The notes beneath the pieces are model-generated. The model was not told the origin of the DNA and did no database searches. It saw nothing but the letters and a program-made list of their open reading frames with translations. 64,000 bases of DNA from Novosphingobium sp. CECT 9465 (GTDB taxonomy: Bacteria > Pseudomonadota > Alphaproteobacteria > Sphingomonadales > Sphingomonadaceae), in the NCBI RefSeq assembly GCF_920987055.1, contig NZ_CAKLBX010000001.1, positions 1,784,501-1,848,500 on the forward strand. The letters run 5' to 3'. The translations under genes were made by a program, and so were the position numbers. Shown here piece after piece: positions 60,729 to 64,000 of this stretch (its first letter is position 1; the number at the start of each line of letters is the position of its first letter).

Positions 60729-62140
60729 CAATGCCCCAGCGACTTGACGATGTCCTCGACCATTTTCTTGGCATCGGCGAGCAGCATCATCGTCTGGTCC
60801 ATGTAGAACACGTCGTTGTCGACACCGGCATAGCCGACCCCGCCCATGCTGCGCTTGACGAAGAAAATCGTCTTGGCCTTATCCACATCGAACACCGGCA
60901 TGCCGTAGATCGGGCTGGATTTGTCGGTCTTGGCTGCCGGGTTCACCACATCGTTCGCGCCGATGATGAAGGCGACGTCTGCTTGCGCGAACTCGCTGTT
61001 GATGTCTTCCAGTTCGAACACTTCGTCATAAGGCACGTTGGCTTCGGCCAGCAGCACGTTCATGTGGCCGGGCATACGGCCCGCGACCGGGTGGATGGCA
61101 TATTTCACGTTGACGCCATGGGCCTTCAACTGATCGCCCATTTCGCGCAGCGCATGTTGGGCCTGCGAAACCGCCATGCCGTAGCCTGGAATGATGATGA
61201 CGTTTTCGGCTTCCTTCATCATGTAAGCCGCGTCTTCGGCCGAGCCGCGCTTCCACGGGCGCTGTTCGCGCGCCTCGCCGCCGCCCGCTTCGGGGCCTGC
61301 ACCGAAACCGCCTGCGATCACCGAAATGAAGCTGCGGTTCATCGCCTTGCACATGATGTACGAAAGGATCGCACCCGACGACCCCACCAGCGCGCCGGTG
61401 ATGATCATCGCGGTGTTGTGGAGCGTGAAGCCCATCGCCGCCGCTGCCCAGCCCGAATAGGAATTGAGCATCGAAACGACCACCGGCATGTCCGCGCCGC
61501 CAATCGGGATGATCAGCAGGAAGCCGATGATGAACGACAGCACGGTGATCGCCACGATCACCCACTGGCTCTGGTCCTGCGTGAAGTACGCCACCAGACC
61601 GAGGATCGCGACCAGCGTGCCAAGGTTCAGTACATGGCGACCCGGCAGCATGATCGGTGCGCCGCTCATCTTGCCTGCCAGCTTCAGGAACGCGATGATG
61701 CTCCCTGAGAACGTGATCGCACCGATGGCAATGCCAAGGCCCATCTCGATGCGGCTCTGCACCTCGATCACGCCATCTGCACCGGCAATGCCGAACGCGA
61801 TGGGGTTAAGATAAGCGGCAAGGCCAACCAGCACCGCCGCAAGGCCCACCAGCGAATGGAATGCAGCAACAAGCTGCGGCATGTCGGTCATCTTGATCTT
61901 GCGCGCGGTGACGAATCCAACGCCACCGCCGATGACCAGCGCGCCGACGATTTCGGGCAGGCTGGCGATCGAGTGCGTGTAAAGCGTGGTCACCATCGCA
62001 ATCGCCATGCCGATCATGCCATAGCGGTTACCCGCGCGTGACGTTGCCGGACTGGACAGGCCGCGCAGCGCAAGGATGAACAGAACACCCGAAACAAGGT
62101 AGGCCAGTGAGGCCCACGAAGGAGTTGCGATGTGCTCCAT
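60728..62140 (-). CDS. pntB: NAD(P) transhydrogenase subunit beta
   Basis: The membrane and NADP-binding subunit of the proton-translocating transhydrogenase. 470 residues: about nine transmembrane helices (TLYTHSIASLPEIVGALVIGGGVG; AVTLPxxx-like helices; PIGGADMPVVVSMLNSYSGWAAAAMGFTLHNT, shown: GGADMPVVVSMLNSYSGWAA) and the C-terminal dIII domain with NVIIIPGYGMAVSQAQHALRE, YAIHPVAGRMPGHMNVLLAEA and DVAFIIGANDVVNPAA. ATG 62140 overlaps the pntAB stop. It makes NADPH from NADH and the proton gradient. Confidence 0.96.
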   Translation of the reverse strand: MEHIATPSWASLAYLVSGVLFILALRGLSSPATSRAGNRYGMIGMAIAMVTTLYTHSIASLPEIVGALVIGGGVGFVTARKIKMTDMPQLVAAFHSLVGLAAVLVGLAAYLNPIAFGIAGADGVIEVQSRIEMGLGIAIGAITFSGSIIAFLKLAGKMSGAPIMLPGRHVLNLGTLVAILGLVAYFTQDQSQWVIVAITVLSFIIGFLLIIPIGGADMPVVVSMLNSYSGWAAAAMGFTLHNTAMIITGALVGSSGAILSYIMCKAMNRSFISVIAGGFGAGPEAGGGEAREQRPWKRGSAEDAAYMMKEAENVIIIPGYGMAVSQAQHALREMGDQLKAHGVNVKYAIHPVAGRMPGHMNVLLAEANVPYDEVFELEDINSEFAQADVAFIIGANDVVNPAAKTDKSSPIYGMPVFDVDKAKTIFFVKRSMGGVGYAGVDNDVFYMDQTMMLLADAKKMVEDIVKSLGH

Positions 62141-62424
62141 CACTTCTTCTCCTTCTTCTTGTACATCGCCAGCATGCGCTCGGTCACGGCAAAGCCGCCA
62201 AAGATGTTGACCGAAGCCAGCACCACCGCGCCAAGCCCCAGCCACTTCGAGACCGCCGAACCCTCAGCCGCCGCAGCAACCAGCGCGCCGACCACGATCA
62301 CCGAGGAGATCGCATTGGTCACCGCCATCAGCGGCGTGTGCAGCGCGGGCGTGACCGACCAGACGACATAATAGCCCACGAAGCAGGCCATCACGAAGAT
62401 CGAGAGAATTGATATGAAGTCCAT
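62140..62424 (-). CDS. pntAB: NAD(P) transhydrogenase subunit alpha part 2 (membrane)
   Basis: A 94-residue membrane protein with three helices: ISILSIFVMACFVGYYVVWSV, TPLMAVTNAISSVIVVGALVAAA (with the conserved LMAVTNAISS) and VVLASVNIFGGFAVTERMLAMYKK. It corresponds to the C-terminal membrane part of E. coli PntA, which is a separate gene in alphaproteobacteria. It normally follows pntAA directly; here a DUF559 gene intervenes, its stop overlapping the ATG by one base. Confidence 0.95.
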   Translation of the reverse strand: MDFISILSIFVMACFVGYYVVWSVTPALHTPLMAVTNAISSVIVVGALVAAAAEGSAVSKWLGLGAVVLASVNIFGGFAVTERMLAMYKKKEKK

Positions 62425-62771
62425 TATTCCCCTTCCTCCCCGGCACGGGGAGGGGGACCATCCGCAGGATGGTGGAGGGGACTCTCCGCCCGCGCGGCAA
62501 TGGCGTCGGCAGTGCCAACGACGTCCGCGAGAATGCGCTTCGCCGAAACCCTCAAAACCCTGTACCCGTTATCTGCCAGGAACTTGAACCTGATGTCGTC
62601 TTTGGTGGCGCGTTCGGTATCGTGAACCCACCCCTCGACCTCGATGACCAGCCTTGCGGCTGAACAATAGAAGTCGGCGATGTAGGGGCCAACCGGATGT
62701 TGCCGGCGGAACTTCAGTCCCCTTGGCCGTTGCCGCAGCACTTGCCACAACATGACCTCAGGCTTTGTCAT
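62424..62771 (-). CDS. DUF559 endonuclease-like protein inserted in the pnt operon
   Basis: A protein of about 115 residues of the DUF559 family (very-short-patch-repair-endonuclease-like). Signature: MTKPEVMLWQVLRQRP, LKFRRQHPVGPYIADFYCSAARLVIEVEG, where Asp...Glu-Val-Glu-Gly resembles the PD-(D/E)xK nuclease core, and then DDIRFKFLADNGYRVLRVSAKRI. The 3' end encodes SPLHHPADGPPPRAGEEGE from one of the flanking repeats. The gene is located between pntAA and pntAB and is bracketed by inverted repeats. ATG 62771 is preceded by GGCGGGA; the open frame runs to 62900 through the right repeat. Function not proven. Confidence 0.85.
   Translation of the reverse strand: MTKPEVMLWQVLRQRPRGLKFRRQHPVGPYIADFYCSAARLVIEVEGWVHDTERATKDDIRFKFLADNGYRVLRVSAKRILADVVGTADAIAARAESPLHHPADGPPPRAGEEGE
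62435..62480. repeat. Inverted 46-nt hairpin repeat, left copy
   Basis: Begins CCTCCCCGGCACGGGGAGG and ends ACCATCCGCAGGATGGTGG plus AGGGG. Two hairpins can form (CTCCCC...GGGGAG and CCATCC-GCA-GGATGG). It lies inside the 3' coding end of the DUF559 gene. Reverse complement of the right copy apart from six differences, several of them in the paired arms of the second hairpin. Confidence 0.9.
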
Positions 62772-62827
62772 TTCCCGCCTGAGTTGGCGGGCGCGGTAAA
62801 CAACGTGGCGCTGCGATGGAGGAGAAG

Positions 62828-62873
62828 CCCCTCCACCCCCCTTCGGGCGGTCCCCCTCCCCGTACCGGGGAGG
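62828..62873. repeat. Inverted 46-nt hairpin repeat, right copy
   Basis: On the minus strand begins CCTCCCCGGTACGGGGAGG, same length as the left copy and inverted with respect to it. The first hairpin is preserved (CTCCCC...GGGGAG); the second reads CCGCCC-GAA-GGGGGG. It lies about 57 nt upstream of the DUF559 ATG and about 24 nt after the pntAA stop. Confidence 0.9.
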
Positions 62874-62896
62874 ATTGGCGACACCGCCGGGTGCGA

Positions 62897-64000
62897 TCAC
62901 CCCAGCAGCCTCTCGCTGACCACCTTGCCGCCCTGCGTCAGGCGGATGGCGTTGCCGATTTCCTCGTCCAGAACAGGCTTGCCCTGCTCCTTATCCCAGA
63001 AAGCCGAGAGGAAGTTGTAAAGATTGCGACTGAACAAGGCCGATGCGTCCGCCGCCAGATGTGCCGGCGTGTTCGAATAGCCGACGATCTTGACGCCGTG
63101 CTTTTCGACCACCTGATCCGCGACAGAACCCTCGACATTCCCACCTTGCGAAACCGCCAGATCGAAGATCACCGAACCCGGCTTCATCGTGGCGATCTGG
63201 ACATCGGAAATCAGCCGCGGTGCAGGCCGTCCCGGAATCAGCGCGGTGGTAATCACGATGTCCTGCTTGGCGATGTGCGCCGAAACCAGTTCGGCCTGCG
63301 CCTTCTGGTATTCCTCCGACATTTCGGTAGCGTAGCCGCCCGCGCCCTCGCCCTCGATCCCGGCGACGTTTTCGACGAAGATCGGCTTGGCGCCGAGCGA
63401 CTGGATCTGTTCCTTCGTCGCCGAGCGCACGTCGGTTGCCGAGACTTGCGCGCCAAGACGGCGGGCTGTGGCTATGGCCTGAAGCCCGGCAACACCGACA
63501 CCCATGACGAAAGCCTTGGCGGCTGAAACCGTGCCCGCCGCCGTCATCATCATCGGGAAAGCGCGACCATAAAGGTTGGCGGCAACCAGAACTGCCTTGT
63601 AGCCCGCAAGATTCGACTGCGACGAAAGGATGTCCATCGATTGCGCGCGCGTGATGCGCGGCATGAATTCCATCGCCAGCGCTTCAAGTCCGGCAGCGGC
63701 ATAAGCTTCCACGCGGTCACGCCTGCCGAACGGGTCCAGCCCTGCCACGACCCACGCGCCTTGCTTTGCGCCGACGAGCAGGTCTGCTTCGGGACCTTGT
63801 ATGCCAAGCACGATGTCGGCATCTTTGGCGGCATCGGCCACGACGATTTCAGCGCCAGCGGCACGATAATCATCGTCACCGATCGAAGCACCTGCGCCGG
63901 CGCCGCTTTCAACGACAACGGTTGCACCAAGGGCGATAAATTTCTTCACGGTTTCCGGCGTCGCCGAAACCCTGCTCTCCCCACTCGCGCGTTCCCGAAG
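62897..64000 (-). CDS. pntAA: NAD(P) transhydrogenase subunit alpha part 1 (5' end outside window)
   Basis: The NAD-binding dI subunit. The frame is open to the edge of the window; the outermost residues read LRERASGESRVSATPETVKKF, the typical start of PntA after a few residues, so only the very beginning is missing. NAD-site segments are visible: VFVMGVGVAGLQAIATARRLGAQVSATDVR (shown: GVGVAGLQAIATARRLGA), RITRAQSMDILSSQSNLAGYKAV and PGSVIFDLAVSQGGNVEG. Length in the window is 367 codons. With pntAB and pntB it forms the transhydrogenase; the DUF559 gene and repeats separate it from pntAB. Confidence 0.95.
   Translation of the reverse strand, partial: LRERASGESRVSATPETVKKFIALGATVVVESGAGAGASIGDDDYRAAGAEIVVADAAKDADIVLGIQGPEADLLVGAKQGAWVVAGLDPFGRRDRVEAYAAAGLEALAMEFMPRITRAQSMDILSSQSNLAGYKAVLVAANLYGRAFPMMMTAAGTVSAAKAFVMGVGVAGLQAIATARRLGAQVSATDVRSATKEQIQSLGAKPIFVENVAGIEGEGAGGYATEMSEEYQKAQAELVSAHIAKQDIVITTALIPGRPAPRLISDVQIATMKPGSVIFDLAVSQGGNVEGSVADQVVEKHGVKIVGYSNTPAHLAADASALFSRNLYNFLSAFWDKEQGKPVLDEEIGNAIRLTQGGKVVSERLLG

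Follow-up and report, generated by a model that had tools for sequence, protein, structure and literature searches.

The window analyzed here, a 64,000-nucleotide (64-kb) stretch of the Novosphingobium sp. CECT 9465 genome, holds a 441-bp unit with inverted ends that contains a DUF559 gene and sits between pntAA and pntAB, which lie on the minus strand. We propose, with a probability of roughly two in three, that DUF559 nucleases are repeat-associated enzymes that mobilize triplex-ended repeats and that the unit is an autonomous member of a mobile family. The association of gene and repeat, their cognate pairing, the triplex-type ends, the gene-less miniatures, and the presence/absence patterns all appear well supported by sequence comparison; cleavage and transposition by the DUF559 protein itself are what we infer. 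Comparison also shows that, at sites occupied here, relatives have no element or have members of other repeat families instead.

The DUF559 unit of the pnt operon

The first-pass annotation had described a DUF559 gene between pntAA and pntAB, and profile searches agree: the encoded protein matches PF04480 (E = 1.3e-28) as its sole profile, and the neighbors match AlaDh_PNT, PNTB_4TM, and PNTB. The whole unit (62434-62874, no strand assigned), as delimited by arm alignment and its 441-bp length, ends in inverted arms of 65 nucleotides each (62434-62498 and 62810-62874) that are 82% complementary. The longest open frame (62424-62900, minus strand; 158 amino acids from a GTG) crosses the right repeat and ends within the left repeat, so that, as had been noticed before, the left copy encodes the C-terminal tail of the protein and the longer frame also reads through the right copy. 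Upstream lies pntAA (AlaDh_PNT; 62897-64000, minus strand, continuing beyond the window edge), the stop codon of which (62897-62899) is overlapped by the most upstream GTG of the DUF559 frame (GTGA). Downstream, the DUF559 stop codon shares one base with the ATG at 62424 of pntAB (PNTB_4TM; 62140-62424, minus strand), which confirms the one-base overlap (TAATG) recorded at first pass.

The PF04480 nuclease domain (62493-62798, minus strand) was modeled with AlphaFold2 from 46 aligned sequences (pLDDT, 86.5). Foldseek matched the model to NGO0050 (3hrl; E = 1.1e-5), the I-Bth0305I domain (3r3p; E = 2.6e-5), and Vsr (1vsr; E = 6.6e-3), and a PD-(D/E)XK, Vsr/homing endonuclease-like fold with conserved putative catalytic residues is therefore predicted. 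The likeness to I-Bth0305I and Vsr lies in this predicted fold; to our knowledge, neither of the two lies between inverted triplex repeats that also occur in gene-less form. YcjD, the DUF559 protein of Escherichia coli, has likewise been predicted to be a PD-(D/E)XK nuclease (PMC1189080).

A motif scan recovered both copies of the 46-nucleotide inverted repeat at exactly the positions originally assigned. In the left copy (62435-62480), whose G-rich strand is the plus strand according to both the arms and the scan, hairpin 1 (62435-62453, plus strand; CCTCCCC-GGCAC-GGGGAGG, as read from the sequence) is followed by a second, covarying hairpin (62457-62473, plus strand; ACCATCC-GCA-GGATGGT) and by a putative mirror third strand, GGAGGGG (62474-62480, plus strand). 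The right copy (62828-62873), assigned in the same way, has its G-rich strand on the minus strand, with hairpin 1 at 62855-62873 (minus strand; CCTCCCC-GGTAC-GGGGAGG, again read from the sequence) and the mirror third strand GGAGGGG at 62828-62834 (minus strand). The scan, the rule of which was fixed after such repeats had been seen (a 7-bp pyrimidine/purine hairpin and a mirror of the purine arm within 34 nucleotides, with A opposite A or T), returned these two places only, on the plus and minus strands, respectively, in the entire 64-kb window.

Repeats beside DUF559 genes in other genomes

Bracketing of DUF559 genes by inverted repeats was scored as the best local alignment of the left flank with the reverse-complemented right flank (150 bp each), with a score of at least 35, a threshold chosen after the data had been seen; the controls were random intervals in the same loci, not matched genes, and the Fisher tests ignore phylogeny. 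DUF559 matches were present in 49 of the 79 genomes of relatives, and 96 of the listed domains were taken, 94 of them with enough flanking sequence; 20 weaker ones were added later. Inverted GC-rich repeats bracketed 63 of the 94 domains, compared with 0 of 940 control intervals, in keeping with the enrichment beside DUF559 genes that had been anticipated, and they bracketed one of the 20 weaker domains (in G035). Loci from named genomes gave 63 of 79 (controls, 3 of 790), a set that is biased toward close relatives since it comprises the best of 580, mostly from Sphingomonadales along with Brevundimonas, Asticcacaulis, Caulobacter, and others, and that includes a few of the same records as the first set of 94. 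In a sample drawn evenly across the phylum, made up of the 29 strongest loci, 13 were bracketed (controls, 4 of 290), and in a family of another class, with 4 of its 21 loci also in the phylum sample, the count was 7 of 21 (controls, 2 of 210); the association is weaker in this one other class tested by itself. Because the same pairing of gene and repeat recurs in many other bacteria, DUF559 is a strong candidate for the spreader of these repeats.

Of the 31 domains left unbracketed by the test, 15 had an intact site. The triplex motif was found within 200 bp and in the expected orientation at 55 of the 63 bracketed domains, at 10 of these 15, and at 0 of the 16 other unbracketed domains, against a background of 0.004 per 200-bp strand window. 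The remaining 5 of the 15 lacked an expected-orientation motif on either side, and in the opposite orientation the 16 others had one motif on the left and one on the right.

Repeat type follows the protein tree, not the host. In a maximum-likelihood tree of 95 DUF559 domains, a 32-row clade (support, 100/99) carries the two-hairpin type seen in the window, with 24 rows typed as such by rule, 5 by eye (the rule having called them single-hairpin), and 3 without repeats. The other 63 rows comprise 33 with single-hairpin repeats by rule, 28 with none by the test, and 2 unscorable ones; among them is a 15-row clade (100/99) with repeats in 0 of 15. For pairs of units drawn from different genomes, similarity of the proteins correlated with similarity of the repeats (Mantel r = 0.54, a value reached in 0 of 2000 permutations). 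In 44 of 52 units, the repeat was more similar to the one beside the closest protein relative from another genome than to those of other units in its own genome. The two-hairpin repeat was present, in 1 to 90 copies, in 23 of 23 genomes with a gene of the two-hairpin type (21 assigned by the tree, G032 and G035 by eye) versus 9 of 56 others; within the genus, these numbers were 21 of 21 with the gene versus 9 of 27 without an assigned gene. G046, a 100% complete genome with no DUF559 match at all, has 38 copies of this repeat.

Bracketing also goes with an apparently intact catalytic center. By comparison with Vsr, we take the D/E/H residues of DUF559 to be catalytic; D42, E53, D/E/N55, and H59 were all kept in 61 of 64 bracketed versus 16 of 48 unbracketed domains (112 aligned domains), a contrast confounded by phylogeny because a repeat-less paralogue clade has also lost the site. 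Members of a weak DUF559 paralogue clade (VIGSAIVDFAC-type; e.g., G000:C1:3508938 and most of L184 to L203) have lost the presumed catalytic residues and have no flanking repeats; they are possibly a domesticated, non-cutting DNA-binding protein.

Alternatively, the repeats could multiply by replication slippage or through an unrelated transposase, with DUF559 genes, for example those of mismatch repair or defense nucleases, surviving well alongside them. Nine genomes that keep the two-hairpin repeat without an assigned gene would be in line with this, as would the Y1_Tnp matches in the window's genome, the deletion-prone nature reported for TM loci (PMC4666352), and the case of Caulobacter VsrA, a DUF559 protein described as tied to mismatch repair and as underlying the SOS response in vivo if a DNA methylase is missing (PMC12907096). 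However, the close two-sided bracketing, the cognate codivergence, and the dependence on presumed catalytic residues would then be unexpected, which makes such a bystander role of the gene distinctly improbable in our estimation.

Triplex-type ends and the BoxC/PIT/TM repeats

The first-pass annotation overlooked a mirror third strand, the connection with BoxC/PIT/TM repeats, and how widely the association extends across the phylum. The G-rich tail downstream of hairpin 1 mirrors the purine arm of that hairpin, with A opposite A or T. Of 200 asymmetric arms, 167 were perfect matches when the tail was read as a mirror and 25 when it was read directly (family-level Wilcoxon test, P = 0.002, n = 19). 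When fitted on G versus non-G alone, 189 of 225 arms were perfect, for which 18 distinct arms is the fairer number because many arms are copies of one family. Opposite a stem A, the letters were A in 185, T in 57, and C in only 7 cases, against a background of 1536 A, 2190 C, and 1256 T; C is thus rare there, yet it is the commonest non-G letter near the repeats.

A mirror of the purine arm is the signature of an intrastrand purine-motif triplex, a fold that we predict from the sequence and for which the antiparallel rule is stated as G.G-C with A.A-T or T.A-T triplets (PMC4666352). The single-hairpin repeats could, judged by eye, also form a G-quadruplex instead; the mirror is, however, also found in ends from Brevundimonas and Asticcacaulis that have few G runs, so that a triplex fits better.

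In architecture, the single-hairpin repeats of other units fit the BoxC/PIT/TM repeats: they follow the class II pattern of pyrimidine arm, loop, purine arm, short linker (mostly about 2 to 4 nucleotides), and mirror third strand, and some TM repeats are also reported in inverted pairs (PMC4666352). In E. coli, the TM repeats (BoxC, PIT) are given as CCCTCNCCC-N3-6-GGGNGAGGG-N3-GGGNGAGGG, and the motif is described from over 260 genomes (PMC4666352). Both copies in the window have the class II makeup of a pyrimidine arm, a purine arm, and a mirror third strand with G.G-C and A/T.A-T; their linker (62454-62473) holds hairpin 2 and so departs from the 1- to 6-nucleotide linker of the definition, which places this two-hairpin variant outside the 1- to 6-nucleotide loops given for the finder (PMC4666352). 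As that paper reports, TM single strands fold as triplexes by circular dichroism (CD) and nuclear magnetic resonance (NMR), a stable triplex is unsupported by the duplex and in vivo DMS footprinting data, and the motif was found to have no association with mobile elements and flanking genes without a common function (PMC4666352); the whole words "DUF" and "nuclease" are absent from its main text.

The two window copies had been said to differ mainly in the second hairpin, which is the case, and across relatives such differences are compensatory. Among 91 distinct two-hairpin sequences, 343 of 364 inner pairs of hairpin 2 are Watson-Crick pairs, with all four pair types represented, and the length of the stem varies on both sides together. 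Pair 1, at the base of this hairpin, is T.G in 42 of the 91 sequences and A.C in none. Vsr enzymes are described as nicking at T.G mismatches (PMC12907096), and the match between this preference and the basal pair is suggestive only. Strand asymmetry of wobble pairs was considered as general proof of single-strand folding and was not used as such, because nearly all of the difference (45 versus 3) comes from pair 1 (G.T 42, A.C 0); at the inner pairs of hairpin 2 it is 3 versus 3.

With strong hairpins at both ends of a frame that overlaps both pnt neighbors, the repeats might also be thought to act in RNA, as terminators, attenuators, or mRNA stabilizers regulating a selfish nuclease gene, instead of as mobility ends. 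Such a role would leave the gene-less copies with the same inverted ends unaccounted for, and an ordinary RNA hairpin makes no use of a mirrored third strand; moreover, purine-motif triplexes are stated to be impossible in RNA, and PIT elements are described as having neither promoter nor terminator activity (PMC4666352). We therefore regard RNA-level regulation as highly improbable and continue to interpret the repeats as ends of mobile units.

The same pairing of gene and repeat is encountered in E. coli. In MG1655, ycjD (1351407-1351760; DUF559 E = 1.4e-49) lies 167 bp from TM number 9 of 23 (1351204-1351239), and the chance of a TM being that close to a given gene is, by our own arithmetic, roughly 0.4%. 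The 3' end of ycjD enters a second TM in inverted orientation, which is truncated in K-12 and full-length in strain S1-SRB-02-B; the window shows the same arrangement, with the C terminus encoded by the repeat. On the 5' side of ycjD, no TM was seen, and sapF follows after 67 bp. YcjD and VsrA thus resemble the protein described here in being DUF559 proteins, YcjD also in its adjoining TM repeat; they differ in that the ycjD repeats are rearranged or decayed in K-12 and in that VsrA has been studied as a mismatch repair enzyme.

In several E. coli fabI-ycjD-sapF loci (L342 and L344 to L346), a partial duplicate of the ycjD 3' coding end is located downstream of the gene and is followed by TM number 9, which together resemble the remains of a second, decayed unit. 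Of 5426 E. coli genomes searched, 5375 gave any match, and 3362 of these have the ycjD region (at least 80% of the query). Genomes lacking ycjD were tried as an empty-site test and rejected, since the gap was filled by other genes in the two genomes opened, so this polymorphism provides no clean empty site. One E. coli control genome had no PF04480 match, though K-12 YcjD does match. Among the open-access literature matches listed, as judged from titles and the starts of abstracts, a link of DUF559 or YcjD to these repeats was not recognized, and no paper among those matches named an origin or mobilizer of intrastrand-triplex repeats.

Gene-less copies, occupied and empty sites, and a possible route of mobility

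The repeat had been expected to occur elsewhere in the genome as well, and the 24-nucleotide pattern CCTCCCCGNNNCGGGGAGGGGGAC was indeed found 28 times in the window's genome (4.39 Mb, 6 contigs) at up to 2 mismatches, 19 of these hits being exact; the same pattern read backwards gave 0 matches in that genome at the same tolerance. In total, 22 of the 28 hits pair up, with ten gene-less pairs spanning 122 to 172 bp, whereas the pair that encloses the DUF559 gene spans 439 bp when measured likewise; five of the six remaining "single" hits are, by eye, pairs in which the second arm misses the pattern. REPIN-like, gene-less inverted pairs are therefore present in this genome, which has four DUF559 genes, one of them of the two-hairpin type. 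We also considered whether the miniatures arose from the gene unit by simple internal deletion; since few inner edges match (6 of 22 on the right and 5 of 22 on the left; shuffle P ≤ 0.05), such an origin is only partly supported. By eye, the inner edges of the miniatures and the gene unit share a short word, ACTCTCC/GCTATC.

RAYTs are thought to mobilize REPs, and the analogy with that system proposed at first pass is borne out by the inverted ends, the gene-less miniatures, and the cognate repeat types. As in a REPtron, a gene is flanked by inverted copies of a genome-wide palindromic repeat, gene-less inverted pairs exist, and the class of repeat is clade specific (the REP side of this comparison is covered in part by PMC3733652). 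The differences concern the enzyme, which matches PF04480 and, by Foldseek, PD-(D/E)XK structures, whereas a RAYT is an HUH Y1 enzyme (PF01797); the arms, which by eye carry a G-rich mirror tail where a REP has a GTAG tetranucleotide at one end; and several repeat-rich genomes that have no Y1 match. A RAYT as general mobilizer was rejected on this last ground: Y1_Tnp matches were present in 23 of 79 genomes, and a RAYT cannot be generally required because none was matched in the repeat-rich genomes G037 (90 copies of the repeat pattern), G006, G031, and G046. The window's genome has three Y1_Tnp matches, which makes a Y1 enzyme possible there.

The pnt junction was measured, counting by hand, in 29 of 48 same-genus genomes, the window's own included. 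Twelve junctions are only 4 to 17 bp long, 8 hold a DUF559 unit, 2 hold a short geneless stretch, and 7 hold other DNA; the gene is thus absent from this site in some relatives, as the first-pass annotation had envisaged. Among the 8 units, one is decayed and one, in G023, falls in another subclade, suggesting that it inserted there independently. The six intact units form one tree group (92/96), so inheritance at the site is likely among them. In G009, G042, G024, G038, G008, G005, and G034, the pntAA-pntAB junction contains unrelated extra DNA of 365 to 853 bp; with seven other species carrying unrelated DNA there, the junction looks like a general insertion spot.

A miniature site (C1:632102) was compared by eye in twelve relatives: no element was seen in G033, G003, and G043, only a short C-rich stretch in G047, other repeats in G028, G009, G006, G031, and G013, and other DNA in G015, G027, and G007. 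The genomes G015 and G027, 97% identical around one unit, are polymorphic for several single-hairpin repeats, and in place of the DUF559 unit of G015:C26, G027 has, by eye, 1.76 kb of other DNA. Comparing pnt loci with and without the insertion had been expected to reveal the exact junctions; empty junctions exist, and no exact junction rule was found at the compared sites, nor, by eye, a consistent target-site duplication at the junctions of the pnt units, the miniature site, or the G015/G027 differences.

G015 and G027 also differ in elements of other kinds. Two G015-only elements of approximately 270 bp (B30415 and B103449) have a common interior (GAGGCGTCCAAATGGCGAACATATCGGGCCGAAA...), but the inverted repeats at their ends are not the same in both. 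CGTC-type REPs (CGTCATTGCGAGCG...; B108899 and B149027; assigned to this type by eye) are polymorphic between the two genomes and have no DUF559 inside. Like the repeats described here, these are alphaproteobacterial palindromic repeats; they differ in sequence and tag as well as in lacking DUF559, and they are described as mostly head-to-head pairs without a dedicated transposase (PMC3733652).

The occupancy of the same pnt junction by two DUF559 subclades, the existence of unoccupied junctions, and the second-best structural match, to the catalytic domain of I-Bth0305I, invite comparison with homing. A free-standing homing endonuclease would cut repeat pairs or unoccupied sites, the gene would be copied in by recombination between homologous repeats, and the repeats would spread by other means; the gene-less pairs, having the same ends, would offer such an enzyme ideal empty sites. 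However, neither the twelve junctions of 4 to 17 bp nor the miniature site of three relatives contains a repeat pair, so that insertion into repeat-free DNA must also happen, and miniatures far outnumber genes (28 motif hits versus one gene of that type among four). On balance, we find a homing-type element unlikely.

If, as we prefer, the DUF559 protein mobilizes the repeats, a Vsr-like PD-(D/E)XK enzyme would recognize the folded single strand, for example, in the lagging-strand template or in a cruciform, and would nick or cut at the folded repeat; host repair would then copy the released element elsewhere, into intergenic DNA. Mobility would resemble that of REPtrons and REPINs, with a metal-dependent nuclease in place of the HUH tyrosine transposase and triplex-forming ends in place of simple hairpins. 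Of the mobile, Vsr-like nuclease unit imagined at first pass, the anatomy is supported by comparison, and action of the enzyme on the repeats is the part that we still infer. It is quite possible, if somewhat short of an even chance, that DUF559 represents a new class of DNA mobility, in which a small metal-dependent nuclease reads intrastrand-triplex ends, and perhaps a T.G pair, and moves its own gene as well as miniatures, the BoxC/PIT/TM repeats of E. coli and of hundreds of other bacteria being its products.

Many bacteria have conserved, abundant repeats of the intrastrand-triplex kind, and the DUF559 family is widespread and functionally uncharacterized. The link between the two supplies a candidate maker for a class of repeats that, as far as searches of the open-access literature reached, lacked one, and both the origin of the repeats and the function of DUF559 become testable in E. 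coli K-12, which has ycjD and neighboring TM repeats. If the proposal is true, this would be a type of mobile element without a classical transposase, HUH enzyme, or recombinase, one that reads a non-B DNA structure.
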